Assembly (NCBI RefSeq): GCF_000730165.1
Contig: NZ_CP022112.1
Location: 1,218,001-1,282,000 of the forward strand
Length of the DNA stretch: 64,000 nt
Direction: 5' to 3'
From: Nitrospirillum viridazoti CBAmc
Lineage (GTDB): Bacteria > Pseudomonadota > Alphaproteobacteria > Azospirillales > Azospirillaceae
The notes below the pieces were generated by a model. It saw nothing but the letters and a program-made list of their open reading frames with translations. It made no database searches and was not told the DNA's origin. The position numbers were made by a program, and so were the translations under genes. Shown here piece by piece: positions 1 to 56,536 of this stretch. Every line of letters begins with the position of its first letter. The first letter of the stretch is position 1.

Positions 1-473
1 TCCTCGCGCAGGGCCGCCAGCGCCTGGGTCTGGTGCTCGGGCGTGGGGTTGGCGTCCAGGTCCAGCACCAGGTCCCGGTTGGCCATGCGGGCCAAGGGGC
101 TGTCCTTCTGGGTGACGAAGACGCCGGTGGTGACGGCGTACGGCAGGGAGAAGGCCAGCACCGCCTTGCGCGCCGGCGTGATCTGCAACGCGTCGGCGAT
201 GACGTCGATCTTGTGGGCCTGCAAGGCGCCGATCATGCCGTCCCAATCCTGGGCCACCAGCTGGCAGCGCAGGTTCGCCCGCTGGCAAAGGATTTGAAGC
301 AGATCGGGCTCGAAACCGATCAGGGTGCCGTCGGGCCGGGTGATGTTCCAGGGCGGGAAGGCTCCCTCCGTCCCGATCACGACGGTCCGAGGGGGTAGGT
401 CGGCCGCCCGCGCGCCGCCTAGAGACAGTAGGACGGCCAGCCCGAGAACGGCGCCGCGCAGGGTTTTGCTCAT
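1..473 (-). CDS. Amino-acid ABC transporter substrate-binding protein (family 3), 3' part off the left edge
   Basis: Reading the minus strand from an ATG at 473 gives a signal peptide of about 23 residues ending in GGARA, then a family-3 solute-binding start: VVIGTEGAFPPWN, then DGTLIGFEPDLLQ and later QDWDGMIGALQAHKIDVIADAL. This is the periplasmic ligand-binding fold of HisJ/ArtJ-type importers. The frame stays open to the window edge, so roughly 157 residues are visible. Its ATG overlaps the hutD stop (ATGA), so it is translationally coupled to the hut operon. That context makes histidine or urocanate the likely ligand, which is an inference. Permease and ATPase genes would be expected just beyond the left edge. 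Confidence 0.88.
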   Translation of the reverse strand, partial: MSKTLRGAVLGLAVLLSLGGARAADLPPRTVVIGTEGAFPPWNITRPDGTLIGFEPDLLQILCQRANLRCQLVAQDWDGMIGALQAHKIDVIADALQITPARKAVLAFSLPYAVTTGVFVTQKDSPLARMANRDLVLDLDANPTPEHQTQALAALRE

Positions 474-1057
474 GGCCGCTCCGCCAACGGGACGATCTCG
501 ATCCACCAGCACACCGCCGTCGCCCGGACGGTGATGGACGCTGCCGTCCCAGCATCGACGAGGAGGGCGTCAAGCGGCCCCAGGGTATGGGCTTCGTCGC
601 CGTGCATCACCTGCGCCGTCCCGGTCGCCACCAGCAGGTGGGTGGCGGCCGGGGTCAGCGGCAGGGTAACGGTGCCGGGGGGCAGCTGGCGCTGCGTGCC
701 GCGCATCCGGCCACGGCGCACCATCAGGTTCAGGTCGGTGACGGGCCCGCCGTCCGGCGTTCCCGATACCGGCACATCGCCGGGAAACGCGTGGGCTGCT
801 ATTTCCGGTGTCACCAGGACGGGGGCCGTGCCGCCGCCGAAGTCCAGCAGCAGGCGGCCTTCCAGCACCGCCAGCACGCGGTCGATGCCCGGGAAGTGGG
901 AAAAGGGCCCCGCCCCCCGCACGTCCGCGATGCTGACGCGCCAGAGGATGTCGCCCGCGCCATCGTCCTGGCGGGCGACCTCGCGCGTGACGCCGCCCCC
1001 GTTCTTCCAGGCCTGAGCGGGCCGTGAGGCCGAGGGAAGCAGGCGGACACCCCTCAT
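470..1057 (-). CDS. hutD: HutD family protein
   Basis: A 195-residue cupin-like protein of the HutD/Ves family. It starts with the family pattern [24 protein letters not shown] and continues with [29 protein letters not shown]. No catalytic activity is established for the family; in pseudomonads HutD has been proposed to limit hut expression. The ATG overlaps the hutU stop and its own TGA overlaps the start of the substrate-binding protein, so it sits inside a coupled hutI-G-U-D-transporter operon. The length is usual for the family. The assignment rests on the N-terminal signature and the location. Confidence 0.92.
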
Positions 1058-2721
1058 CCCAGGATACCGGGCAGGTCAAGGCCCATGGTGCGGGCGCAGT
1101 CGCGGGCGATGTCGTAGCCGGCGTCGGCATGGCGCATCACGCCGGTGGCCGGGTCATTCCACAGGACGCGCTCCAGCCGCTTGGCGGCTTCGGGGGTGCC
1201 ATCGGCGACGATGACCATGCCGCTATGCTGGGAATAGCCCATGCCCACGCCGCCACCATGGTGCAGCGATACCCAGGTGGCGCCCGACGCGGTGTTCAGC
1301 AACGCGTTCAGCAGCGGCCAGTCGGACACGGCGTCGCTGCCGTCCCGCATGGCTTCCGTCTCGCGGTTGGGGCTGGCGACGCTGCCGCTGTCCAGATGGT
1401 CGCGGCCGATCACCACGGGGGCCTTCAGCTCGCCCCTGGCCACCATCTCATTGAAGGCCAGTCCCAGGCGGTGGCGGTCCCCCAGCCCAACCCAGCAGAT
1501 GCGGGCCGGCAGGCCCTGGAACCGGATCCTCTCCCGCGCCATGTCCAGCCAATTGTGCAGGTGCCGGTTGTCCGGCAGCAGTTCCTTCACCTTGGCGTCG
1601 GTCTTGTAGATGTCCTCGGGATCGCCGGACAGGGCCGCCCAGCGGAAGGGGCCGATGCCACGGCAGAACAGCGGGCGGATGTAGGCGGGCACGAAGCCGG
1701 GGAAGTCGAAGGCGTTGGCAACCCCCTCGTCCTTCGCCACTTGGCGGATGTTGTTGCCATAGTCGACGGTGGGCACACCCGCCGCCTGGAAGTCCAGCAT
1801 GGCCTGGACGTGCACCGCCATGCTGGCGCGCGCGGCGGCGGCCACGGCCTGCGGCTCGCGTTCCCGCCGCTCGACCCACTCGGCCACCGTCCAACCCACC
1901 GGCAGATAGCCGTTGACGGGATCGTGGGCCGAGGTCTGGTCGGTCAGCAAATCCGGACGGATGCCGCGCCGGACCATCTCGGGCAGGAGTTCGGCGGCAT
2001 TGCCCAGCAGGCCGACCGACACCGCCTTCTTCTCGGCACAGCTGCGTTCGATGATGGCCATCGCCTCATCGATGGTTTCGGCGGCATGATCCAAATAGCC
2101 GGTCCTCAGGCGCATCTCGATGCGGCTGCGCTGGCATTCGATGGCCAGGCAGGAGGCGCCGGCCATGACGGCGGCCAGCGGCTGCGCCCCGCCCATCCCG
2201 CCCAGGCCGGCGGTCAGCAGCCAGCGGCCCGACAGGTCGCCACCATAATGCTGGCGGCCCATCTCGACAAAGGTCTCATAGGTGCCTTGGACGATGCCCT
2301 GGGACCCGATGTAGATCCAGGAACCGGCCGTCATCTGGCCGTACATAGCCAGGCCCTTGCGGTCCAGCTCGTGAAAATGCTCCCAATTGGCCCATTTCGG
2401 GACCAGATTGCTGTTGGCGATCAGGACGCGCGGGGCGTCGGGATGGGTGCGGAAGACACCCACCGGCTTGCCGGACTGGACCAGCAGGGTCTGGTCGGCC
2501 TCCAGCCGCGTCAACGCCTCCACGATCCGATCGTAGCTCTGCCAGTCGCGAGCGGCGCGGCCGATGCCGCCGTAGACCACCAGCTCCTCCGGGCGCTCCG
2601 CCACGTCGGGGTGCAGGTTGTTCATCAGCATGCGCAGCGCCGCCTCGGTCAGCCAGCTTTTGGCGGTGCGTTCCGTGCCGGTGGCGGGGCGGATGACGCG
2701 GGTGTTGTCGATGCGGCTCAT
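1054..2721 (-). CDS. hutU: Urocanate hydratase (urocanase)
   Basis: A 555-residue cytosolic enzyme that hydrates urocanate to 4-imidazolone-5-propionate, step 2 of histidine breakdown, using tightly bound NAD. Family landmarks are [14 protein letters not shown] near the N-terminus, the glycine-rich [42 protein letters not shown], the [11 protein letters not shown] segment and [15 protein letters not shown] near the C-terminus. The reading frame is open upstream of 2721, but the ATG beginning MSRIDNTRV is chosen because it overlaps the hutG stop (ATGA) and matches the family length. It is coupled to hutG upstream and hutD downstream. Confidence 0.97.
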
Positions 2722-3542
2722 AGGGTCCTTCCCAGGCTGGTGGCGAAGGCGAGGCAGTCGTCCAGGATACCGGTCAGGACCGTGACGAGAGGCCTCGCGT
2801 AAGCGGGGTCGAAAGGGGGCGGCCAAGTGTCGGGGCCAGGCTCGTCCGGCTCGGCGAGATAGCCCCGGATGGCCAGTTCCATCTGAATGGCGTGGATGCC
2901 CTCGGCGGGGCGGCCATAGTGGCGCGTCGTCCAACCGCCTTTGAACCGGCCGTTCAGCACGTGGCTGTGGCCGCTGGCGGCGCAGCGGTCGTGGACGGCG
3001 GTGGCCAGCGCCCCGTCGCAGGTGGCGCCACCGTTGGTACCGATGTTGAACTGCGGCAGGGGGCCGTCGAACAGGCGCGGGATGACGCTGCGGATGGAAT
3101 GGGCGTCATACAGGACGACGGCGCCATGGTTCCGCCGCAGCCGCGCCAGCTCCGCCCGGATGGCGTCGTGGTAGGGATCGAAATAAGCTGTCCGCCGCGC
3201 GGCGATGTCGGCGGCATCGGGCGTGGCCCCGGCGTAAAGCGGCTCACCGTCGAAGGTGGTGACGGGGCAGAGGTCGGTTGTCGCCTGGCCGGGATAGAGC
3301 GATGCGCCGGAGGGGTCGCGGTTGACGTCGATGACGCTGCGCGACAGCCGCGTCCGGATGGTGGTGGCGCCCATGTCCGCCGCGAAGGCGTACAGCCGAT
3401 CGATCCACCAGTCGGCGTCCTTGCGCGCCAGCCAGGGCGACGCGAAGCGGCCCAGCAGCCCATCCGGTATGTCGGTGCCGGTATGGGGAAAGGTCACGAC
3501 CAGGGGCGCGGCGCCGCGGTGGATTTCCAGCCAGTCTGTCAT
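2718..3542 (-). CDS. hutG: N-formylglutamate deformylase
   Basis: A 274-residue metal-dependent hydrolase that converts N-formylglutamate to glutamate and formate, the last step of the five-step hut route. Visible motifs are [11 protein letters not shown] near the N-terminus, [18 protein letters not shown], and [17 protein letters not shown] with metal-ligand-type histidines. The start [10 protein letters not shown] at 3542 is preferred over an ATG 21 bases upstream because only one base then separates it from the hutI stop (TGAGATG). The presence of both HutG and HutF shows that this strain uses the formimidoylglutamate deiminase route rather than direct formiminoglutamase. Confidence 0.95.
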
Positions 3543-3543
3543 C

Positions 3544-4749
3544 TCAGTTTCCCCGCCAGACACGCGCGTGCAGGGGGGTGAACCCCATGCGATAGACCAG
3601 ATCCGCCGGCCGCTCGATATCCCAGATCGCCAGGTCGCAGGACTTGCCCGCCTCCAGCGTGCCTATCTCATGGTGCAGCCCCAAGGCGCGGGCGGCGTTG
3701 CGGGTGACGCCGGCAATGCACTCATCGACCGTCATGCGGAACAGGGTGGCCCCCATGTTCATGACCAGCAGCAGCGAGGTCAGGGGCGACGTACCCGGGT
3801 TGCAATCCGTGGCCAGGGCCATGGGCACGCCGGCCGCGCGGAAGGCGTCCACGGGCGGCAGCTTGGTTTCCCGCACGAAATAGAAGGCGCCGGGCAGCAA
3901 CGTCGCCACGGTGCCGGCCGCAGCCATGGCCGCGACACCATCGGCGTCGGTATGTTCCAGATGATCGGCCGACAGGGCACCATGCCGGGCCGCCAGCGCG
4001 GCGCCGGACAGGTTGGACAACTGGTCGGCATGCAGTTTGATCGGCAGGCCATGGGCGGCGGCGGCGGCGAACATCCGCGCCGTCTGATCCGGCGTGAAGC
4101 CGATGCCCTCGCAGAACGCGTCGACGGCGTCGGCCAGCCCCTCCCCCGCCGCCGCCGGCAGCACGGTGTCGCACAGGAAGTCGATATAGCCGTCGGCGTC
4201 ACCGCTGAATTCAGGCGGCAGCGCGTGGGCGCCCAGGAAGGTGGTGGTGATCCGGACCGGCCGCGCCTGCCCCAGCCGGCGCGCGGCGCGCAGCATGTGC
4301 AGCTCAGCCTCCAGAGTCAGTCCGTATCCTGACTTGACCTCCACCGTCGTCGCCCCTTCCGCCATCAGGGCGTCCAGCCGAGGCAGCGCGCTGGCCGTCA
4401 GCGCCGCCACGTCGGCGTCGCGCGTGGCACGCATGGTGGAAAGGATGCCGCCGCCAGCCCGGGCGATCTCCTCATAAGAGGCGCCGGCCAGCCGCAGTTC
4501 GAACTCATGCGCCCGGCTTCCGCCATGGACCAGATGCGTGTGACAATCGATCAGGCCGGGGGTGATCCAACGGCCGGCGCAATCCACCACCACGCCGGCG
4601 TCGAAAGCGGGCGCGTCGGCAGCGGGGCCGGCATAGACGATCAGGCCGTCGCGCATGGCAACGACGCCATCGCGAACGATCCCCAGCCCAGGCTCAGCCC
4701 CGGCAAGCGTCGCCAAATGGGCGTTTTTCCACAGCTTGTCGCAACGCAT
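3544..4749 (-). CDS. hutI: Imidazolonepropionase
   Basis: A 401-residue amidohydrolase-superfamily enzyme that opens the imidazolone ring to give N-formimidoyl-L-glutamate. The metal site is visible as H70-T-H72 in [15 protein letters not shown]240 in KLHADQLSN, the ADHLEHTD segment and D315 in [12 protein letters not shown]. The substrate-contacting EVKSGYGL segment is at about 137-144. It is first in the minus-strand hut operon and diverges from hutF across 89 bp that hold one HutC operator-like site. The length matches the family. Confidence 0.97.
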
Positions 4750-4803
4750 GCCCGTTCTCCCGGCGGCTCAGGTCCGCCTCAATGGTTGCGTTCGCACCTT
4801 AGA

Positions 4804-4815
4804 ATGTATAGACAT
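4804..4815. promoter_or_regulatory. Putative HutC operator between hutI and hutF
   Basis: The sequence is ATGTATAGACAT, a near-palindrome of the TGTA-N2-TACA kind known for HutC in other proteobacteria. It lies about 25 bp upstream of the hutF ATG in the divergent hutI-hutF region. The same motif, inverted, occurs twice upstream of hutH. Assignment to HutC is inferred from the recurrence and from hutC being downstream of hutF. Urocanate release of HutC would induce both arms. Confidence 0.7.
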
Positions 4816-4838
4816 ATGGCGCAACAGGAGAATGCACC

Positions 4839-6215
4839 ATGGGCACTGACGGCGGTTCGGACGGGGCTTTCCACTTCCAGCAGGCCCTGCTTCCCGAGGG
4901 TTGGGCGGACAATGTGCGGCTGACGGTCCGGGATGGCGTCATCGCCACCCTGGAACGGAACGCGACCCCCCAGGCCGGTGATGAACGGCAGCCGGTGGCG
5001 GTGCCGGGCCTGCCCAACCTGCACAGCCATGCCTTCCAGCGCGGCATGGCCGGCCTGGCGGAGGTGCGGGGGCCGGCGGGCGACAGCTTCTGGACCTGGC
5101 GCGACGTCATGTACCGCTTCGTCGATCGCCTTTCACCCGATGACCTGCACGCCATCGCGGCCTTGGCCTACATGGAAATGCTGGAGGCCGGGTTCACCCG
5201 CGTCGGGGAATTCCATTACCTTCATCATGATCGGGACGGCGGCCGGTTCGCCGACCCGGCGGAGATGAGCGCCGCCATCGTCGCGGCGGCGGATGAGACC
5301 GGCATCGCCCTGACCCATCTGCCCGTGTTCTACGCGCATTCCGGTTTTGGCGGGGCGGCACCGGGACACGGACAGCGCCGCTTCCTGCACGACCTGGACG
5401 GCTTCGCCCGCCTGCTGGACGCGGCGCGGACCAAGGCGCGTGCCCTGCCCGATGCGGTCGTCGGCGTGGCGCCGCACAGCCTGCGCGCGGTGACGCCCGA
5501 GGAATTGACCGAGGTGGCCGGCCTGGCCGGCGCCGCCCCCGTGCACATCCACGTCGCCGAGCAGGTGAAAGAGGTCGAGGACTGCGTGGCCTGGGGCGGG
5601 GGCCGGCCGGTGGAATGGCTGCTGGCCAACGTGGCCGTGGACGCCCGATGGTGCCTGGTGCATGCCACCCACGTGACCCCGGCGGAGGTCGCGGACATGG
5701 CGGCGCGCGGCGCAGTGGTCGGCCTCTGCCCCATCACGGAGGCCAACCTGGGCGACGGCATCTTCCCAGCCCCCGCCTATCTGTCCGCCGGTGGCCGGTT
5801 CGGCGTCGGATCGGACTCGAACGTCCTGATCGACGCGACCGAGGAACTGCGCCTGTTGGAATACGGCCAGCGCCTGGCGGGCCGCAGCCGCAACGTGATG
5901 GCGCGGGCGCCGGGACGATCGACGGGCCAGGATCTGATGGAGGGCGCGCTGGCGGGTGGCGCCGCCGCCCTGGGCGCGCCATCCGCCATCGCGGTCGGCC
6001 ATGCGGCGGACCTGGTCAGCCTCGACACCCAACATCCGTCGCTGCACGGCCGTCGGGGCCCGGCGCTGCTGGACGCCCTGATCTTCGCCGCCGGCCGGAC
6101 GGCCATTGACGGGGTCTGGCGCCGGGGCAAGCAGGTGGTTAATACTGGCCGGCACCAGCGGCGGGACGCCATTGTCACCCGTTACCGCCAAGTCCTCGAA
6201 AGATTGACCCAGTGA
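4839..6215 (+). CDS. hutF: Formimidoylglutamate deiminase
   Basis: A 458-residue amidohydrolase-superfamily deiminase that converts N-formimidoyl-L-glutamate to N-formyl-L-glutamate and ammonia, feeding HutG. Metal-site motifs are H62/H64 in LPNLHSHAFQRGM, the VHIHVAEQVKEVEDC strand, LVHATHVTPAE and FGVGSDSNVLIDATEELRLLEYGQRL. The ATG at 4839 follows CAGGAGAATGCACC, a good ribosome-binding site. The stop overlaps the hutC GTG start, so enzyme and repressor are co-translated. It diverges from hutI across a HutC operator-like site. Confidence 0.96.
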   Translation: MGTDGGSDGAFHFQQALLPEGWADNVRLTVRDGVIATLERNATPQAGDERQPVAVPGLPNLHSHAFQRGMAGLAEVRGPAGDSFWTWRDVMYRFVDRLSPDDLHAIAALAYMEMLEAGFTRVGEFHYLHHDRDGGRFADPAEMSAAIVAAADETGIALTHLPVFYAHSGFGGAAPGHGQRRFLHDLDGFARLLDAARTKARALPDAVVGVAPHSLRAVTPEELTEVAGLAGAAPVHIHVAEQVKEVEDCVAWGGGRPVEWLLANVAVDARWCLVHATHVTPAEVADMAARGAVVGLCPITEANLGDGIFPAPAYLSAGGRFGVGSDSNVLIDATEELRLLEYGQRLAGRSRNVMARAPGRSTGQDLMEGALAGGAAALGAPSAIAVGHAADLVSLDTQHPSLHGRRGPALLDALIFAAGRTAIDGVWRRGKQVVNTGRHQRRDAIVTRYRQVLERLTQ

Positions 6216-6922
6216 CGCTTTCCCTGCATGAGCGCATTCGAACGGACATAGAATCGGCCATCCTGTCGGGAAAGCTGGCGCCGGAAGACCGGCTCCCCGT
6301 CGAGCATGAGCTGATGCAGACCTATCAATGCTCGCGCATGACGGTCAACAAGGCGCTGTCCGCCTTGGCCGCGGCGGGTCTCATCGAGCGGCGCAAGGGC
6401 GCCGGCTCCTTCGTGGGCCGCCCGCATGCCCATTCCATGATCCTGGACGTTCCGGACCTACCGGTCGAGGTGGCCAAACGCGGCCATGTCTACGGCTATC
6501 AGCTGCTGGTGCGGAAGCTGCGGGCGGCGGCTCGGGGAAACGCCGAGGAGGAGTTGCTGGCCGGCGGTCGCCGGCTGTTGCAGTTGGACGGCCTGCATTC
6601 CGCCGACGGCGCGCCCCTGGCGGTGGAACGCCGCCTGGTCAGCCTGGCCGCCGTGCCGGCGATCGCGGAGGCGGACCTTGAGAAGGAACCGCCAGGAACC
6701 TGGCTGCTGCGGCATGTGCCGTGGACGGAGGCGGAAACCCGCATTTCCGCCGTCCCCGCGGATGCGGAGATCGCGCGTCTTCTCAAGACGCCGGTCGGCA
6801 CGGCCTGCCTGTTGGTGGAACGGCAGACCTGGCGCAGTTCGGAACGGATCACGGCCGTGCGCCAATATTTCCTGGGCACGGCCTATCATCTGGTCGCCCG
6901 GTTCGGCAGCAGCCGTCCGTGA
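6212..6922 (+). CDS. hutC: Histidine utilisation repressor (GntR/HutC)
   Basis: A 236-residue GntR-family regulator. Residues 1-70 form the winged helix (LHERIRTDIESAILSGKL, SRMTVNKALSALAAAGLIERRKGAGSFV) and about 90-230 the UTRA effector domain, ending in ITAVRQYFLGTAYHLVARF. In the family it represses hut genes and is released by urocanate. The start is GTG inside GTGA, overlapping the hutF stop. Likely targets are the operator-like sites at 4804, 11618 and 11643, and HutC would autoregulate through hutF. The gene ends at a strong hairpin shared with the converging TonB receptor gene. Confidence 0.96.
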   Translation: MTLSLHERIRTDIESAILSGKLAPEDRLPVEHELMQTYQCSRMTVNKALSALAAAGLIERRKGAGSFVGRPHAHSMILDVPDLPVEVAKRGHVYGYQLLVRKLRAAARGNAEEELLAGGRRLLQLDGLHSADGAPLAVERRLVSLAAVPAIAEADLEKEPPGTWLLRHVPWTEAETRISAVPADAEIARLLKTPVGTACLLVERQTWRSSERITAVRQYFLGTAYHLVARFGSSRP

Positions 6923-6961: not shown

Positions 6962-9367
6962 TCAGAACTTCTGCCCGAACTTGACACCGAACAGTCGCGG
7001 CTTCGTCGGATAGATGCGCGCGTACTGGCCGGAGATTTCAGGGGCGGAGAAGGTGTTGCGGGTCAGCCCCCCACGGTCGTCGAACAGGTTCTGGACATAG
7101 AACTCGGCGCTGGTGTTGCCGATCTTGCCGCCCATCGAAATGTCCACGGTGGTGAAGCCCGGACTGTCGCCGACGAGCTCGTCCGCCGTGGTGCCCAGGA
7201 AGCTGCGCGTGCTGGTCTGGTGGTTCAGGGATCCCTGGACGAAGCTGTCCGCCTCCCCCAACAGGAATTCATAGCGGGCCGTGGTGTTGAACTTGATCCG
7301 GGGCTGCACCGGCAACCGCGTGCCCTTCGGCGCCGCGATGATGCCGGAGGCGCAATCCGGGTTGCTGTTGGCGCCGATGGCGCAGAAGTCGGTCGCCAAA
7401 CGGGCATCGTTGAACGCACCCGATGCCGACAGGGTCAGGCTGCGGGTGACGGCCCAGGTGATGTCCGTCTCGACGCCGTACACCCGGGCGTCGCCGGCAT
7501 TGTAGATGTTGGTCACGCTGCCGGAGTTGAGCGCCACCAGGGCGTACTGCAGGTTGTTCCATTCCTCGTAATAGACGGCGCCGTTGAAGCGTAGCTTCTG
7601 ATCGAACCACGACGTCTTCCATCCCAGCTCGTAATTGTCCAGCGTATCCGATCCGTAGGGTTCGACGCCCGCGCGGCGATTGTTACCGCCGGGGCGGTAG
7701 CCGGTGGAATATGTCGCATAGACCATGCGATCCGGATCGATCTGCCAGGTCACGTTCAGTTTGTGGGTCTCGCCCGAGTCATTGAATTTCTTGTTGAGGT
7801 AGGAACAGCTGTTGAGCGACGGGAAGGGGGTCACGCAGCCGGCCTTCGCCGCGTCGCTGGCGAAGCCTGAGAAGCCGGTTAGCGTGTTGTCGGCGATGAA
7901 TCCGCGCACGCCGCCGGTCAGGGTGACGCTGGGCAGGATATCGTAGGAGGCCTGGCTGAACACCGCGTAGTCGCGGTCGACGATATGCACGTTGGTGAGG
8001 AAGATGTCGTCTTCATACACGGGCGATCCCTGTTGGGACGACCCGTAACCCGGCGCGTAATAGTTCGCCTGGGACTGGTTGGTCTGCTCTTGATAGAACA
8101 GGCCGGCGGTAACCCGCCAGCGGTTGGTTGAGGGCGAGCTGAAGCGCAGTTCGTGACTTTGCTTGGTCAGATCCTGGTGCCCATAATAATATTGGGTGGG
8201 GTCGATCTGCTTCCCCATCGAATTCGTGAAATACCCATAGTTGGGATAGGCGTCGTAGGCGACGGTGTAGTAGCTGTAGTCGGCGTGGGTGTCGATCGAC
8301 CGCTGCATATAGCCGCCGGAATAGAGCACATCCCAATCCCAGACCTTGCCCTCGACCGTCAGGGCCGCCTGGTACCACTTGTCGATGTTGCGTTCCGGCG
8401 CATAGTCGTGGACCTGCAGGTCACCGGCCTTGGGGTCGTAAAGGAAGGAACCGTTGGACCGCTGATGCTGGGCGATGACCTGGGGGGTAACGGTCCAGTC
8501 GTCGTCCAGGTCGATGCCCAGGGCGACGCGGCCGCCATAGGTGTCGACGTCGTTGAAGTTCTTTTTGACGAACTTCGAGTTGTCCACGGTGATGGGGCTG
8601 TTGACCACCGTGCCGTCGTCCAGGGTATGGGGGCTCTGGTAGGTGCGCTGGTGGTAGGTGTTGTCGATATAGCCGCCGTCATGCTCGTCAAAGCCGACGA
8701 TGCGCACCGCCGCCCTGTTGCTGAGGGGGATGTTGACGAAACCCTCGATGGTGCCGCCCAGGCTGCCCTTGTCGAAGCGGGTGCCCTGCACGTCATAGCC
8801 CGCGGAGAATTTGGACGTGTCCGGCTTGTTGGTGATGATGCGCAGGGTGCCGGAGAGGGAACTGGCGCCGTAGAGCGTGCCTTGCGGCCCGGACAGCGCC
8901 TCGACCCGGGCAACGTCATAGATATGGACGTCCAGCAGGGAGCCGATGGTGGTGACCGGTATTTCGTCCAGGTAGAAGCCGCTGGTGGGCAGCGCGCCGA
9001 ACGGCAGGCCGTCGCCGCCGGACGAGATGCCGCGGAAGAACAGCTGGCTCTGGCCTGGCCCGAAAGACTGGAAAGACACGCTGGGCAGCTGCTTGGCGTA
9101 GTCGTCGAAGGACTGAACCTGGTGCTGCTCCAGCGTGGCCGTGCCCAGGGCCTGCAGGCTGATGGGCACGTTCTGGAGGTTCTCGCTGCGCTTCTGCGCC
9201 GTCACCACGATTTCCATCAGGCCTTCGTTCGCCGCAGAATCCGGGGTCGCCGGTGCGGCGGGCGTGGTGTCGGCGGCGATGGCGGACTGCATTCCCCATA
9301 TCGGCGCAAGCGCCGTGGAGGCCAGAAGCAGGACCAGCCTGCCGGCCCGCTTGGTCTTAACTCGCAT
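6962..9367 (-). CDS. TonB-dependent outer-membrane receptor within the hut region
   Basis: An 801-residue receptor: signal peptide of about 32 residues (ending SAIAA), TonB-box-like EIVVTAQKR near 52, plug domain with NVPISLQAL, FFRGISSGGDG, DVARVEALSGPQGTLYGASSLSGTLRIIT, and a C-terminal 22-strand-type barrel ending in aromatic F (VKFGQKF). It takes up an unknown ligand across the outer membrane using TonB energy. AAAGGG 8 nt before the ATG is the ribosome-binding site. It follows the TPR-sulfotransferase gene after 101 bp, in the same direction, and lies between hutC and hutH. A histidine-related ligand, such as a peptide, is inferred from position only. It is less similar to the two module A/B receptors than these are to each other. 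Confidence 0.93.
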   Translation of the reverse strand: MRVKTKRAGRLVLLLASTALAPIWGMQSAIAADTTPAAPATPDSAANEGLMEIVVTAQKRSENLQNVPISLQALGTATLEQHQVQSFDDYAKQLPSVSFQSFGPGQSQLFFRGISSGGDGLPFGALPTSGFYLDEIPVTTIGSLLDVHIYDVARVEALSGPQGTLYGASSLSGTLRIITNKPDTSKFSAGYDVQGTRFDKGSLGGTIEGFVNIPLSNRAAVRIVGFDEHDGGYIDNTYHQRTYQSPHTLDDGTVVNSPITVDNSKFVKKNFNDVDTYGGRVALGIDLDDDWTVTPQVIAQHQRSNGSFLYDPKAGDLQVHDYAPERNIDKWYQAALTVEGKVWDWDVLYSGGYMQRSIDTHADYSYYTVAYDAYPNYGYFTNSMGKQIDPTQYYYGHQDLTKQSHELRFSSPSTNRWRVTAGLFYQEQTNQSQANYYAPGYGSSQQGSPVYEDDIFLTNVHIVDRDYAVFSQASYDILPSVTLTGGVRGFIADNTLTGFSGFASDAAKAGCVTPFPSLNSCSYLNKKFNDSGETHKLNVTWQIDPDRMVYATYSTGYRPGGNNRRAGVEPYGSDTLDNYELGWKTSWFDQKLRFNGAVYYEEWNNLQYALVALNSGSVTNIYNAGDARVYGVETDITWAVTRSLTLSASGAFNDARLATDFCAIGANSNPDCASGIIAAPKGTRLPVQPRIKFNTTARYEFLLGEADSFVQGSLNHQTSTRSFLGTTADELVGDSPGFTTVDISMGGKIGNTSAEFYVQNLFDDRGGLTRNTFSAPEISGQYARIYPTKPRLFGVKFGQKF

Positions 9368-9468: not shown

Positions 9469-11481
9469 CTACAACTCAACTTCCGGATAGGTGTGCAGCA
9501 CGGTCCCCAGCGCCGCTTTCAGCGGCGCCAGCCAGGGCTCGAAACGCCGCCAATGGTCCAGCCCCTCGGTGAAGATGGGCTGGCGGACCTGCTCCGAACT
9601 GGGGGTGCGCACGGTGCGCCGGTTGTCCCAAAAGGCCAGGCAGCCGTCCTCGAACGGCAGGCCCAGATGCTCCAACAGCGCGTGGACCTCGTTTTCGGTG
9701 TCTGCCACCAGCCGTTCATAGACGACACGGTGCACGCTGCCGGGGGCCGCCCGGTCCACATGGGCCATGAGCGTTGCGTAGTCCGCGTAGTAACGCCCCA
9801 GTTCCATCAGGTCGTACGTGAAGGCCTGGCCGCGCGCGAAATGCTGCTTGTAGGCGGACCACCCGACACCCAGGGGATGCCGGCGGACATCGACGATCCG
9901 CGCCTTGGGCAGGATGGCGCGGATCAGCGCCACATGCATCCAGTTGTTCGGCATCTTGTCGATGAAGAAGGGTTTCGCCTCGTGCCGGTGCACCCGCGTC
10001 CGCGCGATGTATTCGGCGCCCAACGCCTGCAAGGCGTCGGGGGGCAGGTCATCCAGGCATTCCGGATACCGCCCGGCGGCAGCCCCCTTGCCGGGTGCTG
10101 CCAGCCGTGCGGCGATCGCCATCATGTCGGGCAGTTCGCTGGTGCCCTCGACCATGCTGTGGCTCGCCAGGATCTGCTCCACCAGGGTGGAACCCGAACG
10201 GGGCAGGCCGACGACGAAGATGGGGTCGGGCGCCAGGCAGCCACCGCGCGCCCGGTCCAGGAAGCCCCTGTCGACCATGGCGGCGATGCGGGCGCATTGG
10301 TCGTGCGTCTCATCCGGGTCGTAGCCCAGCTGGGCCCGGCGCAGGCGGTTGCCCTCGGCATAGGCCTGGAAGGCGGCCGCGTCGTCACCTCCCGCATCCT
10401 CAAGCGCCTTGCCCAGCGCGAAATGCAGGTGCAACCGGTTCTCGTCATCCGCCGTGGCCCGCAAGCCGCGCTCCATGGCCGCCCTGTCGTCCACGGAAAA
10501 GCGGAAGGTCTTGAGGTTGGCCAGGCTCCACCACGCCTCGCCCAGCGTGGGCTGCTGCTCAAGGGCGGTGCGATAGGCGGCGATGGCGTCGTCCACCCGG
10601 CCGATCGCCTTCAGGACATGGCCGTAGCTCATCCAGCCCTTGGCCTGCTGCGGGTGGCGGGCCAGAACGTGGGCGTACACGGCGGCGGCGGCCTCCTGGT
10701 CGCCGATGCGGACCAGCAGCGAGGCCTTGAGCATCAGCACCGACGGATTGTCCGGCTCAGCCGCCAGCAGATGCTCCACCTCGGCAAGGGCGTCGGCCGG
10801 CCGGTTGTGCCGTTGCAGCGTGCGGGCCAGCAACTCGCGGGCCGCGGTGAAGGCGGGCGCCAGTTCCAACGCGCGCCGCAGCAGGGTGATGGCATCGTCG
10901 TACCGGCCCAGGCGCACGGCCAGCTCCGCCATCATGCGGATGGCCGCTACGTCGGTGGGCTGGGCGCGCAACCGGTCCCGCAGTGCCCGCTCCGCCACGT
11001 TCAACCGGCCCTCGATCATGGCCATGGCGGCCTGGGCCAGGACGGGATCGCGGGTGGACGCCTTCACGCCGGCCAGGTGGGCCCGTTCCGCCTCCTCATG
11101 CTCGCCGGCGAGAGCCAGCGTGTCGGCCAGCGCCCGCCAGGCGGCGGCCAGGTCGGGGCTGAGAGCGCCGGCGCGACGCATTTCAATCAGGGCATCCGGA
11201 AGCTGGCCCAGGTCGCGCAGCGTCAGGCCCAGTTCCAGGGCCGTGGCGGCCGATTTCGGCTCCGCCGCGGCCAAGTGGCGGAGAACCTCCGCCGCCGCCT
11301 GGATGTCCCCCGCCAGCCTGAGGGCGCGGCCTTGGATCAGCCGCGCGCGCGGGTGGCCGGGCGCCGCGTCGAGCACTTCCGCGACCTGCGCGATGGCCAG
11401 GGCCGGGGCGCGATCAACCAGCGCGGCCGCGCGGTCCAGGGCCGCATCGATGGAAACCAGGGGCGGCGCGGCGCCGTTCAT
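9469..11481 (-). CDS. TPR-repeat sulfotransferase family protein
   Basis: About 670 residues from the ATG at 11481 (MNGAAPPLV). Residues about 20-350 are tetratricopeptide repeats (for example YDDAITLLRRALELAPAFTAARELLARTL). The C-terminal 250 residues are a sulfotransferase domain with the PAPS 5'-phosphosulfate loop FVVGLPRSGSTLVEQILASH and the 3'-phosphate segment ARIVDVRRHPLGVGWSAYKQHF. The frame is open to an ATG at 11616, but that start would begin beside the operator pair and adds 45 low-complexity residues, so 11481 is preferred. Such proteins often neighbour TonB receptors in alphaproteobacteria; the acceptor is unknown. It diverges from hutH across two HutC-like sites. Confidence 0.88.
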   Translation of the reverse strand: MNGAAPPLVSIDAALDRAAALVDRAPALAIAQVAEVLDAAPGHPRARLIQGRALRLAGDIQAAAEVLRHLAAAEPKSAATALELGLTLRDLGQLPDALIEMRRAGALSPDLAAAWRALADTLALAGEHEEAERAHLAGVKASTRDPVLAQAAMAMIEGRLNVAERALRDRLRAQPTDVAAIRMMAELAVRLGRYDDAITLLRRALELAPAFTAARELLARTLQRHNRPADALAEVEHLLAAEPDNPSVLMLKASLLVRIGDQEAAAAVYAHVLARHPQQAKGWMSYGHVLKAIGRVDDAIAAYRTALEQQPTLGEAWWSLANLKTFRFSVDDRAAMERGLRATADDENRLHLHFALGKALEDAGGDDAAAFQAYAEGNRLRRAQLGYDPDETHDQCARIAAMVDRGFLDRARGGCLAPDPIFVVGLPRSGSTLVEQILASHSMVEGTSELPDMMAIAARLAAPGKGAAAGRYPECLDDLPPDALQALGAEYIARTRVHRHEAKPFFIDKMPNNWMHVALIRAILPKARIVDVRRHPLGVGWSAYKQHFARGQAFTYDLMELGRYYADYATLMAHVDRAAPGSVHRVVYERLVADTENEVHALLEHLGLPFEDGCLAFWDNRRTVRTPSSEQVRQPIFTEGLDHWRRFEPWLAPLKAALGTVLHTYPEVEL

Positions 11482-11617
11482 GCGGCCCTCGCCTGCGGAC
11501 CGGGATGGGAGGGATATGCAAGGTCCGACATGGGATGCCAACTCCTGCTTCGTCTGGGATGGCCCATTTGTCCCAGCTGGGCCCGGTTCCGTTGCCGATG
11601 TCGCCTGTTCACGCATA

Positions 11618-11629
11618 TTGTCTATACAT
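11618..11629. promoter_or_regulatory. Putative HutC operator, distal site upstream of hutH
   Basis: TTGTCTATACAT is the inverted form of the hutI-hutF site (core TGTCTATACA). It lies about 90 bp upstream of the hutH ATG and between the divergent hutH and sulfotransferase genes. With the second site 25 bp away, a pair of HutC dimers could cover both promoters. HutC as the ligand is an inference. Confidence 0.62.
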
Positions 11630-11642
11630 TCCCGCTTCGATT

Positions 11643-11654
11643 TAGTCTATACAT
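11643..11654. promoter_or_regulatory. Putative HutC operator, proximal site upstream of hutH
   Basis: TAGTCTATACAT repeats the core TCTATACAT of the site at 11618 exactly 25 bp further downstream and on the same face. It lies 62 bp before the hutH ATG. The spacing and the shared nine bases argue against chance, but binding has not been shown. Confidence 0.6.
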
Positions 11655-11716: not shown

Positions 11717-13207
11717 ATGACGCCATCCGTCCTGCTGAATGGTCCCCTGACCTGGCGCGACCTCAGCGCCGTCGCCCGGGGCAGCGAGCTGGTGCTGTCC
11801 CCGGACGCCTGGGCCCGCATCGGGAACGCCCATGCCGTGGTCGAGGCCATTGTGGCGCAGGGCATCCGGGCTTATGGCGTGAACACGGGGGTCGGCGCGC
11901 TGGTGAGCACGGTGGTGGATCGCGCCAAACAGCGCGACCTGTCCCGCAACCTGGTCATGAGCCATGCCTGTGGCATGGGACAGCCCCTGGAGACGGCCGC
12001 CGTGCGGGGCATCATCGCCGCCCAGATCAACAATTTCGCGCATGGCCGCTCCGGTGTGCGGCCCGACCTGGTGCAAGGCCTACTGACACTGCTGGCCCGG
12101 GGCTGCATACCGGAAGTGCCGTCACGCGGGTCGGTGGGCTATCTGACCCACATGGCCCATATCGGCCTGGTCCTCATTGGCGCCGGCTCGGCCTATATGG
12201 GCGACCGCCGCCTGTCGGGGCGGGAGGCGCTGGACACCATCGGCATGTCCCCCTTGGTGCTCGATTCCAAGGAAGGGCTGAGCCTGGTGAATGGCTCGCC
12301 CTGCGCCACCGGCCTGGGCGGCTATGCGCTATCACGGATTGAGCGGCTGCTGGCCGCGGCGGACGCCGTGGCGGCGCTGACGCTGGAGGCGCTGGGCGCC
12401 CAGATGTCGGCGTATGAGGCCCAGGTGCTGCAGGTACGGATGTCGAATGGGCTGCACCGCACGGGCGCCGCCCTGCGGAATTACCTGGCGGGCAGCCGCC
12501 GCCTGGAGCGCGCCGCGGGGACCCGTTTGCAGGACGCGCTCAGCCTGCGGGCCGTGCCGCATGTGCATGGTGCCGCCCGGGACGCCTTCGACGGCGCCTG
12601 TGCCGTGATCGACCGGGAACTGCAATCCGTCACGGACAACCCCATCGTCTCCGGCACGCCGGCGGCACCGGTCGTCGAGTCCGAGGCGCACGCCGTGGCC
12701 CCCGCGCTGGCCATCGCCCTGGACTCGTTGGCCATCGCCATCGCGCATCTCGGCGCCATCTCCGAACGTCATACCGACCGGCTGGTCAATCCGCTGGTCA
12801 GCGGCCTTCCCCCTTTCCTGGCCAGCGATCCCGGCGCCACCACCGGCTTCATGATCGCGCAGTACACCGCGTCAGCGCTGGTGGCGGACAACCGCCGCCT
12901 GTGCGCGCCCGCCAGCCTCGACGGCGGCATCAACTCCGCGCTGCAGGAGGATTACCTGGCCCATCCCACGGCGGCGGCCACCAAACTGCTGGCCGTCATC
13001 GACAACACTGAATACATCCTGGGAATTGAACTGCTGGCGGCGACCGAGGCGCATGACCTGGCGGTTGATCCGGCGGACCGCGCGCCCGGCACCGCCGCCA
13101 TCCACGATCATGTGCGCGCCTGCGTCGGCCGTTATCGCGATGATCGGCCGTTGGCCGATCACCTCAATATCGGCGCCGACATCATCCGAAATGGCCTGCC
13201 GGCGTGA
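11717..13207 (+). CDS. hutH: HutH-like aromatic amino acid lyase without the MIO-forming ASG triad
   Basis: A 496-residue member of the histidase/phenylalanine ammonia-lyase family. The ATG at 11717 follows GAGGAGCAAACA. Family features are RAYGVNTGVG (52-60), the conserved His in VMSHACGMGQPL, EGLSLVNGSPCATG, LQDALSLRAVPHVHGA, SVTDNPIV, TTGFMIAQYTASAL and NSALQEDYLAHPT. Canonical members have GSVGASGDLAPLAHMA; here GSVG (138-141) runs directly into YLTHMAHIG, with the three cofactor-forming residues absent and the next residues changed. The codons are in frame with no sign of a local frameshift. Histidase activity is therefore doubtful even though the gene carries hut-type operators. A second, canonical hutH may lie outside the window. 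Some pseudomonads carry two hutH paralogues. Confidence 0.85.
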   Translation: MTPSVLLNGPLTWRDLSAVARGSELVLSPDAWARIGNAHAVVEAIVAQGIRAYGVNTGVGALVSTVVDRAKQRDLSRNLVMSHACGMGQPLETAAVRGIIAAQINNFAHGRSGVRPDLVQGLLTLLARGCIPEVPSRGSVGYLTHMAHIGLVLIGAGSAYMGDRRLSGREALDTIGMSPLVLDSKEGLSLVNGSPCATGLGGYALSRIERLLAAADAVAALTLEALGAQMSAYEAQVLQVRMSNGLHRTGAALRNYLAGSRRLERAAGTRLQDALSLRAVPHVHGAARDAFDGACAVIDRELQSVTDNPIVSGTPAAPVVESEAHAVAPALAIALDSLAIAIAHLGAISERHTDRLVNPLVSGLPPFLASDPGATTGFMIAQYTASALVADNRRLCAPASLDGGINSALQEDYLAHPTAAATKLLAVIDNTEYILGIELLAATEAHDLAVDPADRAPGTAAIHDHVRACVGRYRDDRPLADHLNIGADIIRNGLPA

Positions 13208-13215
13208 ATGGGCAC

Positions 13216-14130
13216 CTAGCGCGGCACCGCCATCACCCTGTCGCCGCCCATGCCGGCGTTGGCCAGTTCCCGTTCCGCCTGGGTGAAACCATAGGCCGGC
13301 ACGATCTCGTCGCTGCGGTCGGAGATGCCGTCCCAATTGGCCACCACCTTCTCGCCCGCGCCAGCGCCCGCCCCGATATAGCGGCCAGCCGTCAGGGTGA
13401 CGCTGGCCGTGGCGAAATGGCCGGCACCCGCGCAGAGGATGGCGCGGGTGGGCGCGTCCTCACCCGCCAGCGCCAGAAGGCCGGGGCTGACCAGGCTGGG
13501 CGCCAGCAGATCCAGGCTGTTCTCCGACAGCACGCCGTGGGTCATCTGCGTCGCCGCCGTCGGGGCCAGGCAATTGATCCGGATGCCGTATTTCTCACCC
13601 TCGATGGCCAGGGTCTGCATCAGCCCCACCAGCGCCATCTTGGCCGCACCGTAATTGGCCTGGCCGAAATTGCCATAGAGGCCGGATGACGACGTGGTCA
13701 TGACGATGCGGCCATAGCGCTGCTCCCGCATGATGTCCCACACCGCCTTGGCGCAGATGAACGCCCCGGTCAGGTGCACATCCACCACCAGGCGGAAATC
13801 ATCCAGGTTCATCTTGGCGAAGCTCTTGTCGCGCAGGATGCCGGCATTGTTCACCAGGACGTCGACGCGGCCCCAGGTATCCATGACCCGCGCCACCATG
13901 GCCGCCACCCCCGCCTCGTCCGTCACCGACGCGGCGATGGCGATGGCTTGGCCCCCCTGCGCGGCAATCTCCGCCGCCACCGCGTCGGCGGCAGCCTGTG
14001 CCAGGTCATTCACGACCACCCGCGCGCCCTGCCCCGCCAGGTACAGGGCATGGGCGCGCCCCAGGCCCCCACCGGCCCCGGTGATGATAGCGACCCGCCC
14101 CTCCAGCGACATGCGTTCCCCCTTCGCCAT
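13216..14130 (-). CDS. SDR family oxidoreductase, hydroxyacyl-CoA dehydrogenase type
   Basis: About 304 residues. The Rossmann NAD(P) motif is TGAGGGLGRAHALYLAGQGARVVVND, with NNAGILRDKSF and the catalytic SSSG...YGAAK (NYGAAKMALVGLMQ). This pattern resembles the dehydrogenase half of MFE-2 (3-hydroxyacyl-CoA dehydrogenase), which oxidises 3-hydroxyacyl-CoA during beta-oxidation. The start MAKGERMSLEGR at 14130 follows GGGAGAACGAA; MSLEGR at 14112, after GGGGGAACGC, is an alternative. It converges on hutH with 8 bp between stops and lies downstream of the module A TetR gene after an 85-bp gap that holds an operator-like half site. It probably acts with the ligase and esterase of module A. Confidence 0.9.
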   Translation of the reverse strand: MAKGERMSLEGRVAIITGAGGGLGRAHALYLAGQGARVVVNDLAQAAADAVAAEIAAQGGQAIAIAASVTDEAGVAAMVARVMDTWGRVDVLVNNAGILRDKSFAKMNLDDFRLVVDVHLTGAFICAKAVWDIMREQRYGRIVMTTSSSGLYGNFGQANYGAAKMALVGLMQTLAIEGEKYGIRINCLAPTAATQMTHGVLSENSLDLLAPSLVSPGLLALAGEDAPTRAILCAGAGHFATASVTLTAGRYIGAGAGAGEKVVANWDGISDRSDEIVPAYGFTQAERELANAGMGGDRVMAVPR

Positions 14131-37798: not shown

Positions 37799-39640
37799 TT
37801 AAGGCTTGGCCGTAGCGGTGACGGATGCCTTGCGGCCTGCTCTGGCCGGCTTCGGCCCAGGGCTAGCCTCGGGTGGAGGGGCGTCGGAGGCTGGCGCGGG
37901 GACGGTCATCCCGTATTGCGCATGTTCCTCCTTCAAGGCGGCGATGGCGCTCAACCAGTCGCCCAGGGCGGGCTGGCGATGCACGCGGTGGTTGGGATAC
38001 CAGGGCGATGTCGTGTCGCCGATGCCCCAGCGCCAGTCGACGGAGTGCGCGAGCAGCAGCGAGACCGGTTTGCCCATGGATCCGGCAAGATGCGCCACCC
38101 CGGTGTCCACCGCCACCACATGATCCAGGTTGGCGATGACGGCCGCCGTGTCGATGAAGTCCTGAAGCTTGGGGCTCAGATCGTGCAACCGACCCTTGAA
38201 GGCCAGGGACTCTCCCGCCCGCGGCCCGACCTGCAACGAGAACCAGTCGGCATCGGGAATGGCGTCGAGAACCGCCCCCAGATGCGCCAGCGGCAAAGAG
38301 CGGCGGGCGTCCTCGGAATGCTGGGGACGGCCAGCCCAGACGACGCCGACGCGGCGCCGGCCGTTGGGCGGCGGCAGCAAGGTCCGGCCGCGGGCCACCT
38401 GTTCCTCCGGCAGGGTCAGCCAGCCGGGCAACAGCGGCAGGTCCGCGACGCGGAGCGACAGCATGTGCGGCAGGCTTAACAGCGGCACGTGATAATCAAA
38501 CGATTCCTGGACGCTGAACATGTGCGGGTTGTCGGGGCGGGGAACCACACGGATGCCGTCTTTGGCCAGGGCGGTACTCAGGACCCCGGTCAGCGGAGAC
38601 GACACTTCCAACACCAGATCCGCGAGGCCATGGCGATCCCTCAGGATATGGGCCAGCGGGGTGAACTGGAGAATGTCGCCGAAGCCCTGTTCCCCCCAAA
38701 CGTAGATGCGTTTGCCCGCTAGGTTCTCGCCCCGCCATTGCGGTGCCGCCAGGATACGACGGGGTTCGGGAAACTGGTCCCATACCCAGCGCCATTCGTA
38801 GTCCGCCCAGCCCGTGGCGAAGTCGCCGCGCGCCAGGCATGCCAAGGAGTGGTTCCAGCGGGCCAGCGCGTTGCCGGGCGCCAGCTTCAGCGCCATATCC
38901 AACGCCATCACGGTGGCGTCGATGAAGCCGGCGGTGCGCAGGGCCTTGTCCAGGGTCTGAAGGACTTCCTCCAGCCGTTCCAGCCGTCCGTCGGGCATCC
39001 CTTCCGGCAGGGTGGCCAGCGCCGCCGTCAGTTCCGGCAGACGGTCGCTGATTTCGTCGACCAGCTGCCTGCCCAGATCGCGCGCCTCGGGCAGCACCCG
39101 GCCAAAGAGGATGACGCCCACGATCAGCGGCACGACCGCTTCACGCGATTGCCCCATCCAGGCCAATCCCGTACCCATGTTGACCCAGGCGGAATAGTTC
39201 AAGGGCGATAACGCCAGGATGCGACGGTAGAGAGGCATCGCATCCGCATGCTGGCCACGGGTCTGCAGCATGACCGCCAGGTTCAGCATGGCGGCAGCGG
39301 CGCGCGGCAGGTCGCCCATGCGCTCGAACACGGTGCCCAGCGAGCAGTAGTAAAGGGGCTCACCGGGTTCGATCTTCAAGGCGTGTTCGAACAGGCCGGC
39401 GGCTCTCAAATTGTCTCCCTCATAGGCGGCCATGACGCCCAGCTGGTGCAAACTGGGCGCCGTCACCTCCGGGCGCTCGGTCAACTGCAGGAAGACCTGG
39501 CGCGCCTCGGCCGTCCTTCCGGCGGCCTGCAGTTGCAACCCCTGCGCGAATACGGGAACGCGACGTCCCAATTCCATCAGCATGTCGCCGCTGCGTTCGA
39601 CCACCGGGATGGAAAAGTCGCCGCTATTGTTTCCGCTCAT
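37799..39640 (-). CDS. TPR-containing glycosyltransferase accompanying the giant adhesin
   Basis: A 613-residue soluble protein. About residues 30-180 are TPR-like repeats (ARQVFLQLTERPEVTAPSLHQLGVMAAYEGDNLRAAGLFEHALKIEPGEPLYYCSLG). From about 290 there is a GT-B type glycosyltransferase domain related to families 9/41: KRIYVWGEQGFGDILQFTPLA, RRVGVVWAGRPQHSEDARRSLPLAHL and ANLDHVVAVDTGVAHLAGSMGKPVSLLL. The C-terminus is Pro/Ala/Lys-rich. Its ATG lies inside the last codons of the adhesin gene (17-bp overlap), which couples their translation. By analogy with HMW1C acting on HMW1A, it may glycosylate the Ser/Thr-rich adhesin in the cytoplasm before secretion; this is an inference. Confidence 0.85.
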   Translation of the reverse strand: MSGNNSGDFSIPVVERSGDMLMELGRRVPVFAQGLQLQAAGRTAEARQVFLQLTERPEVTAPSLHQLGVMAAYEGDNLRAAGLFEHALKIEPGEPLYYCSLGTVFERMGDLPRAAAAMLNLAVMLQTRGQHADAMPLYRRILALSPLNYSAWVNMGTGLAWMGQSREAVVPLIVGVILFGRVLPEARDLGRQLVDEISDRLPELTAALATLPEGMPDGRLERLEEVLQTLDKALRTAGFIDATVMALDMALKLAPGNALARWNHSLACLARGDFATGWADYEWRWVWDQFPEPRRILAAPQWRGENLAGKRIYVWGEQGFGDILQFTPLAHILRDRHGLADLVLEVSSPLTGVLSTALAKDGIRVVPRPDNPHMFSVQESFDYHVPLLSLPHMLSLRVADLPLLPGWLTLPEEQVARGRTLLPPPNGRRRVGVVWAGRPQHSEDARRSLPLAHLGAVLDAIPDADWFSLQVGPRAGESLAFKGRLHDLSPKLQDFIDTAAVIANLDHVVAVDTGVAHLAGSMGKPVSLLLAHSVDWRWGIGDTTSPWYPNHRVHRQPALGDWLSAIAALKEEHAQYGMTVPAPASDAPPPEASPGPKPARAGRKASVTATAKP

Positions 39641-56519: not shown

Positions 56520-56536
56520 TATTCCTCCTGGGCCCC

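Follow-up and report, generated by a model that had tools for sequence, protein, structure and literature searches.

A histidase-like lyase without the MIO cofactor in Nitrospirillum viridazoti: a candidate hercynine trimethylamine-lyase

Histidase (HutH) needs the cofactor MIO, which is built from Ala-Ser-Gly. In histidase, Tyr53 is the base, His83 and Glu414 bind the imidazole, Asn195 and Arg283 bind the carboxylate, and Tyr280 is required. To our knowledge, ergothionase is the only MIO-free member of this superfamily whose chemistry is known. A report on ergothionase describes it as having no MIO and as releasing trimethylamine from ergothioneine (PMC13405746). Quaternary amines also have known transport proteins. 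EgtU is described as an ABC importer for ergothioneine that is specific for this compound over hercynine (PMC9732360), and TmoX is described as holding a quaternary amine in a box of four tryptophans (PMC8918994). The Trp box of a related protein (7yle) is reported to hold a quaternary amine as well (PMC10030565).

The lyase, the hut genes, and operator-like sites

We analyzed a window of 64,000 nucleotides from Nitrospirillum viridazoti CBAmc (contig NZ_CP022112.1, positions 1,218,001 to 1,282,000), and coordinates are within this window unless another record is named. The gene of interest and its unusual motif are:

11717..13207, + strand: MIO-free histidase-fold lyase (PF00221, 471.7 bits), 496 amino acids, proposed hercynine trimethylamine-lyase
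12128..12154, + strand: GSVGYLTHM, at the place of the missing Ala-Ser-Gly (read from the sequence and the histidase alignment)

The start codon (ATG at 11717) is preceded by AGGAG, and the codons at 12128-12154 (GGG TCG GTG GGC TAT CTG ACC CAC ATG) are part of an uninterrupted open reading frame. Where histidases have GSVG-ASG-DLAP, this protein has GSVG-YLTH, and aligning it to histidases requires a single gap of three residues, at the Ala-Ser-Gly. Its YGVNTG tyrosine, SHA histidine, LVNG asparagine, and QED are retained, and VPHV replaces the QPQV of histidases. The initial annotation had reported the location of the gene, the motif, the missing triad, the residues that are kept, and the altered downstream contacts, and the reading frame and the alignment confirm all of this.

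Membership in PF00221 is clear (the gathering cut-off is 27.3 bits), but the protein scores 450.5 bits against the HutH equivalog family TIGR01225, which is below the cut-off of 539.15. Its best match to a histidase scores 289 bits, versus 171 bits for ergothionase, whose structure 6s7j was found among its PF00221 relatives in our searches. For the three proteins of this type (YxxH proteins, see below) that we scanned, no NCBIfam model scored above its own cut-off. Plasmid records label members of the family as hutH or histidine ammonia-lyase.

The genome has two PF00221 genes. The second (G000:C3:849804-851183, L124:8200-9714) encodes an ordinary MIO histidase that reads GSVGASGDLAPLAH and scores 680.2 bits against TIGR01225 (cut-off 539.15). 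By eye, the reading frames beside it look like hutG, a regulator of the GntR type, and an amino acid permease. The initial annotation had suggested that either the MIO-less protein has another role and a canonical hutH lies elsewhere, or this strain deaminates histidine differently. The canonical hutH does exist and a different chemistry is probable, but we found no support for another way of deaminating histidine in this strain. With a normal HutH present, we ruled out the MIO-less lyase as a plain replacement for HutH.

The other hut genes of the window, and the two genes between them and the lyase, are:

470..1057, - strand: hutD (PF05962, 149.5 bits, cut-off 25)
1054..2934, - strand: hutU, urocanase (TIGR01228, 957.1 bits, cut-off 375; below the thiourocanate hydratase cut-offs)
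2718..3563, - strand: hutG, N-formylglutamate deformylase (TIGR02017, 397.8 bits, cut-off 278.75)
3544..4749, - strand: hutI, imidazolonepropionase (TIGR01224, 472.2 bits, cut-off 298.15)
4839..6215, + strand: hutF, formimidoylglutamate deiminase (TIGR02022, 645.5 bits, cut-off 413.05)
6212..6922, + strand: hutC, histidine utilization repressor (TIGR02018, 267.5 bits, cut-off 220)
6962-9367: TonB receptor
9469-11616, - strand: TPR-sulfotransferase protein

The true start of hutU probably lies downstream of the one given for this reading frame. Between the lyase and the end of the nearest hut gene there are 4.8 kb, and no importer adjoins the lyase in this window. The genome also encodes EgtD (hercynine synthase family; 365 bits, cut-off 290.9), so hercynine may be made inside the cell as well. 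Farther along the window, the reading frame at 39624-57146 (- strand, 5840 amino acids) is probably a giant two-partner-secretion exoprotein: a TPS secretion domain, MBG repeats, and GLUG repeats are present in the 3000-amino-acid part that we scanned.

Three operator-like sites accompany these genes:

4804..4815, no strand assigned: ATGTATAGACAT, matching near-palindrome between hutI and hutF
11618..11629, + strand: TTGTCTATACAT, HutC-type operator candidate, ending 88 bp before the ATG of the lyase and kept in four related assemblies
11643..11654, + strand: TAGTCTATACAT, second operator-like copy, ending 63 bp before the ATG of the lyase

The core decamer TGTCTATACA occurs exactly at two places in the 7.38 Mb genome, before hutF and before the lyase, and a reversed control pattern occurs at four. 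With up to one mismatch, the decamer is found at four places in the window, versus 0.43 expected, and none of 100 shuffles reached four; the fourth place (22061) lies before another open reading frame. The 12-mer with up to three mismatches is no more frequent than by chance (9 in the window, 7.4 expected). The sites before hutF and before the lyase are both kept in four related assemblies, and four of 14 other loci (L010, L016, L036, and L038) have TGTATATACA roughly 100 bp upstream of hutF. We did not find the operator-like palindrome in the other 10 of these 14 loci, or in the 4.4-kb locus of canonical hutH (L034). We infer that HutC binds at these sites. The shared decamer, together with the hutDUGIFC genes at 470-6922, bears out the original assignment of the lyase to the hut regulon.

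Conservation and phylogeny of the YxxH proteins

The motif G-Y-[LI]-x-H is present in 31 of 33 loci from named genomes, which include Nitrospirillum, Thalassospira, Phyllobacterium, Rhizobium, Agrobacterium, Aminobacter, Paracoccus, and others; L031 and L033 are canonical. A profile of the family found members in 12 of 387 alphaproteobacterial genomes (eight at 755 bits or more and four at 586-600 bits, with the next match at 420) and in 27 of 397 genomes from across the Pseudomonadota (12 at 760 bits or more and 15 at 576-634 bits, with the next match at 425). Four member-bearing genomes are common to both samples. Every genome above the score gap has the motif (12/12 and 27/27), as do four near-identical genes from other Nitrospirillum or Azospirillum assemblies, whose dN/dS relative to the window's gene is 0.036-0.067. 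Given the motif in relatives and the low dN/dS, the missing triad is due neither to a sequencing error, which the initial annotation had allowed for, nor to decay.

The loci yielded 154 PF00221 candidates, or 125 proteins after dropping rows that were identical or under 430 amino acids. These comprise 68 proteins with GY[LIV]xH ("YxxH"; 62 at 97% identity), 53 MIO proteins, and four others. Because the motif itself defined the YxxH set, its members necessarily have Tyr142 and His145, and we used profile searches and trees without the motif columns as further checks. We also masked the motif and two trait regions in 126 rows, references among them. Of these, 69 were nearest to YxxH references: the 68 with the motif and one MIO protein. 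In a tree without the motif and trait columns, the YxxH proteins form one group with support of 100 (38 of 73 rows), and they do so again in a smaller tree made in the same way (15 of 35 rows; support 100/99).

In both trees, the YxxH and ergothionase-type proteins are on separate branches, with YxxH outside the ergothionase clade, which suggests that MIO was lost independently in the two groups. The two may also form a single clade, as holding them together is not rejected by AU tests (p-AU of 0.805, with a likelihood 22 higher, and 0.231 for the 35-row set), and the deep joins are unsure because several rows have long branches.

Some of the loci hold other MIO-free lyases. L112 encodes an ergothionase-type protein (4510-6045, - strand; GSLG-AAD) that has the ergothionase Lys. 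Its gene follows a hut cluster with a YxxH lyase, and the adjoining reading frames resemble, by eye, an importer of the glycine-betaine type. L028 (2367-3869) and L040 (7929-9569) encode ergothionase-like proteins with GSVGQADMTLLSH and with Ala in place of the ergothionase Lys; these are possibly a third MIO-free group. Near the L040 gene (S. meliloti) are an ABC importer and a gene annotated as dimethylsulfoniopropionate lyase. In L037 (CP090555.1, Neorhizobium), the frame of the YxxH lyase is broken in the record (the match is at 12001-13440), and its relatives have intact copies; we omitted it from the alignments. Nine records of a phage collection also matched, all at under 60% identity among the matches listed (5 of 9). 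Phage-labelled records H61-H65, among them a 133-kb Acinetobacter phage record, have histidase-like genes, and these may be host DNA. The group of loci that includes L081 is probably Pseudomonas, as its canonical HutH and 1b8f, which we take to be HutH from P. putida, have the same residue at 379 of 439 sites.

We compared active-site residues across the YxxH and MIO proteins, with 6s7j and 1b8f added. (A row from L010, with 453 amino acids and no motif found, was omitted; the canonical HutH of L010 matches in two pieces.) In 1b8f numbering, Y53, H83, N195, Q277, R283, and E414 are invariant in all 68 YxxH proteins, including the window's. The required Tyr280 is replaced by Leu in 65 of them (including the window's), by Met in two, and by Ile in one; the four ergothionase-type rows all have Leu here, and the 53 MIO proteins all have Tyr. 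The YxxH proteins also lack the GGNFH segment that histidases have. Tyr383 is found in 68 of 68 YxxH proteins, while 50 of 53 MIO proteins have Val. Ergothionase has Lys at position 383 of 6s7j, which we take to be catalytic, and two of the three ergothionase-type proteins that we fetched have Ala there. At the level of sequence, this pattern fits a substrate with the ring and carboxylate of histidine but with another substituent on the alpha nitrogen.

Gene neighborhoods and importers

We examined 60 loci (including the window), or 49 distinct loci after dropping 11 near-duplicates. Some loci are cut by contig ends, so the following counts are lower bounds: core hut genes (hutU, hutG, hutI, or hutF) lie within 11 kb of the lyase at 31 loci; canonical HutH is within 11 kb at 21; the gene for the ATPase of the HutXWV importer ends within 200 bp upstream of the lyase at 15 (at 12 of these within a hut cluster, and at three with no hut genes in reach); and the gene for the ATPase of a HisJQMP-type importer ends within 200 bp upstream at 16. 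Altogether, 41 of the 49 loci have core hut genes and/or one of these types of importer. Among the remaining eight, five (L096-L099 and L117) have neither hut genes nor a HutXWV or HisJQMP-type importer; L029 has HutXWV downstream; L037 has HutXWV upstream of its broken lyase; and L009 weakly matches a different ABC importer. L096-L099 are from one alphaproteobacterial genus with its YxxH lyase apart from hut genes, and in the two that we examined (L096 and L098), a LysR-like regulator is visible by eye beside the lyase.

The gene order in L011 is hutI, hutH, hutX, hutW, hutV, lyase, hutG, hutU, and hutV and the lyase overlap by ATGA. In L021 and L023-L026, the lyase is between hutF and hutI-hutH-hutG-hutU-hutD. 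In L106 and L108, the order is hutU, a gap, hutXWV, YxxH lyase, hutH.

The HutU proteins of the window and of seven other loci were scanned (those of L030, L103, and L118 were left out), and all eight are urocanases (945-1020 bits, cut-off 375) and none are thiourocanate hydratases. The few HutX and HutW proteins that we scanned fall into the glycine-betaine/choline class. Across 24 HutX sequences, two of which (L107 and L114) are second copies encoded at a distance from the lyase, the TmoX-type box is kept: Trp55, Trp102, and Trp177 are present in 24 of 24 and Trp222 in 23 of 24. For the HisJQMP-type importers, we searched with one binding protein, from L016, and its nearest relatives are octopine- and nopaline-binding proteins, the closest being the octopine-binding 5ore. 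Finally, at nine loci the gene after the lyase is SolA-like (N-methyl-amino-acid-oxidase-like), and the protein from L016, the one that we scanned, matches NF008425 (412.8 bits, cut-off 257).

A proposed reaction and its alternatives

We propose that the window's lyase is an MIO-independent C-N lyase that frees trimethylamine from an N-quaternized histidine, most likely hercynine (histidine betaine), to give urocanate. From these comparisons of sequences and gene order, we consider this probable but well short of secure. The urocanate would then be degraded by HutU, HutI, HutF, and HutG. Arg278 and Asn192 would hold the carboxylate of the substrate and His83 and Glu411 its imidazole, as in histidase, and Tyr53 would take the beta-proton. 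The trimethylammonium would occupy the place of MIO, lined by Tyr142, His145, Leu275, and Tyr383. Trimethylammonium leaves readily (a chemical argument), so as an already good leaving group it could depart without the MIO electrophile. We infer the substrate, the product, and the binding role of each residue from several observations: the active-site residues are kept and Tyr280 is lost, as in ergothionase, an MIO-free relative that frees trimethylamine; the lyase is in hut operons or behind importers (41 of 49 loci); the partner HutU proteins that we scanned are urocanases; HutX keeps the Trp box for quaternary amines; a SolA-like gene follows the lyase at nine loci; TGTCTATACA is found only before hutF and the lyase in this genome; a normal histidase is present and egtD is encoded; and the gene order of the Pseudomonas hutXWV-hutH1 module recurs around a YxxH protein in L106 and L108. 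It is the transporters and the operons that point to a betaine of histidine.

Other observations count against hercynine. The window's lyase has no adjoining importer, unlike most of its relatives, and the operator-like palindromes are missing from 10 of the 14 other loci. At five of the 49 loci, both hut genes and an importer of either type are missing. The YxxH proteins have Tyr in place of Lys383 of ergothionase. At 16 loci the importer is of the HisJQMP type, and the similarity of the L016 binding protein says nothing about quaternary amines. Also, HutXWV is described as contributing to the uptake of histidine by P. fluorescens (PMC8871633).

The HisJQMP-type importers, the resemblance of the L016 binding protein to 5ore, and the SolA-like gene (a secondary-amine oxidase) would fit a different N-substituted histidine, such as an opine (e.g., histopine) or N-mono- or dimethyl histidine, with elimination of a secondary or tertiary amine to give urocanate. 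But 15 loci have a betaine-type importer bearing the Trp box, and without MIO these amines would be much poorer leaving groups (a general chemical argument), so we think it unlikely. Ergothioneine itself is a very unlikely substrate. A second ergothionase, forming thiourocanate and trimethylamine, would be in keeping with the common fold, the absence of MIO and the change of Tyr280 to Leu in both groups, and the joint clade that the AU tests do not reject. However, all eight HutU partners scanned are urocanases, N195, Q413, and Y383 are S, I, and K in 6s7j, and L028 encodes both types of protein.

The loss of the cofactor might instead mean that the YxxH protein is a non-catalytic paralog that binds histidine or urocanate and has a regulatory role. 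This seems highly improbable, as all 68 proteins keep Tyr53 (the catalytic base) and the residues of the substrate site, and Tyr383 has become invariant, as expected of an enzyme. A genuine histidase that works without MIO is barely credible: the imidazole- and carboxylate-site residues are kept, but both MIO and Tyr280 are lost, and a canonical histidase is encoded in this genome and within 11 kb of the lyase at 21 of 49 loci.

Extending the hercynine proposal, we lean, somewhat more cautiously, towards the view that the whole clade annotated as "histidine ammonia-lyase", including hutH1 of Pseudomonas, consists of MIO-free hercynine trimethylamine-lyases. It would be a second entry into histidine catabolism and an unrecognized bacterial route to trimethylamine, often with a dedicated betaine importer. 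No description of a hercynine lyase appeared among the papers listed in our searches of open-licence literature, but this is weak evidence of absence. Hercynine is a metabolite of fungi and bacteria, and if we are correct, it would be part of the diet of soil and plant bacteria. The orphan hutH1 and its importer would have a function, the conservation of a histidase copy that lost its cofactor would be explained, and automatic annotations would be corrected in many genomes. How elimination on this fold proceeds with MIO or without it, according to the leaving group, would become testable.

Compared to known systems, the YxxH proteins share with ergothionase (6s7j/6s7q) the PF00221 fold, the lack of MIO, the change of Tyr280 to Leu, and the retention of Tyr53 and Glu414. 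Ergothionase differs in retaining D after the gap, in having Ser for N195 and Lys383 instead of Tyr, and in its partner, which is thiourocanate hydratase rather than urocanase (from the eight HutU scanned). With HutH (1b8f, 7tqr; TIGR01225), the window's lyase shares the fold, the imidazole and carboxylate residues, and the hut operon, but it lacks Ala-Ser-Gly, Tyr280, and GGNFH and is below the family cut-off. The hutXWV-hutH1 genes of Pseudomonas are similar in order and position, with the YxxH gene and then hutH in L106 and L108, although the importer is absent from our window; because of this gene order, hutH1 is very probably a YxxH protein. Lastly, HutXWV resembles EgtU, as described in the report cited above, in being an importer of the quaternary-amine type, which in EgtU carries a derivative of histidine betaine; EgtU has a Tyr/Phe cage where HutX has a Trp box.
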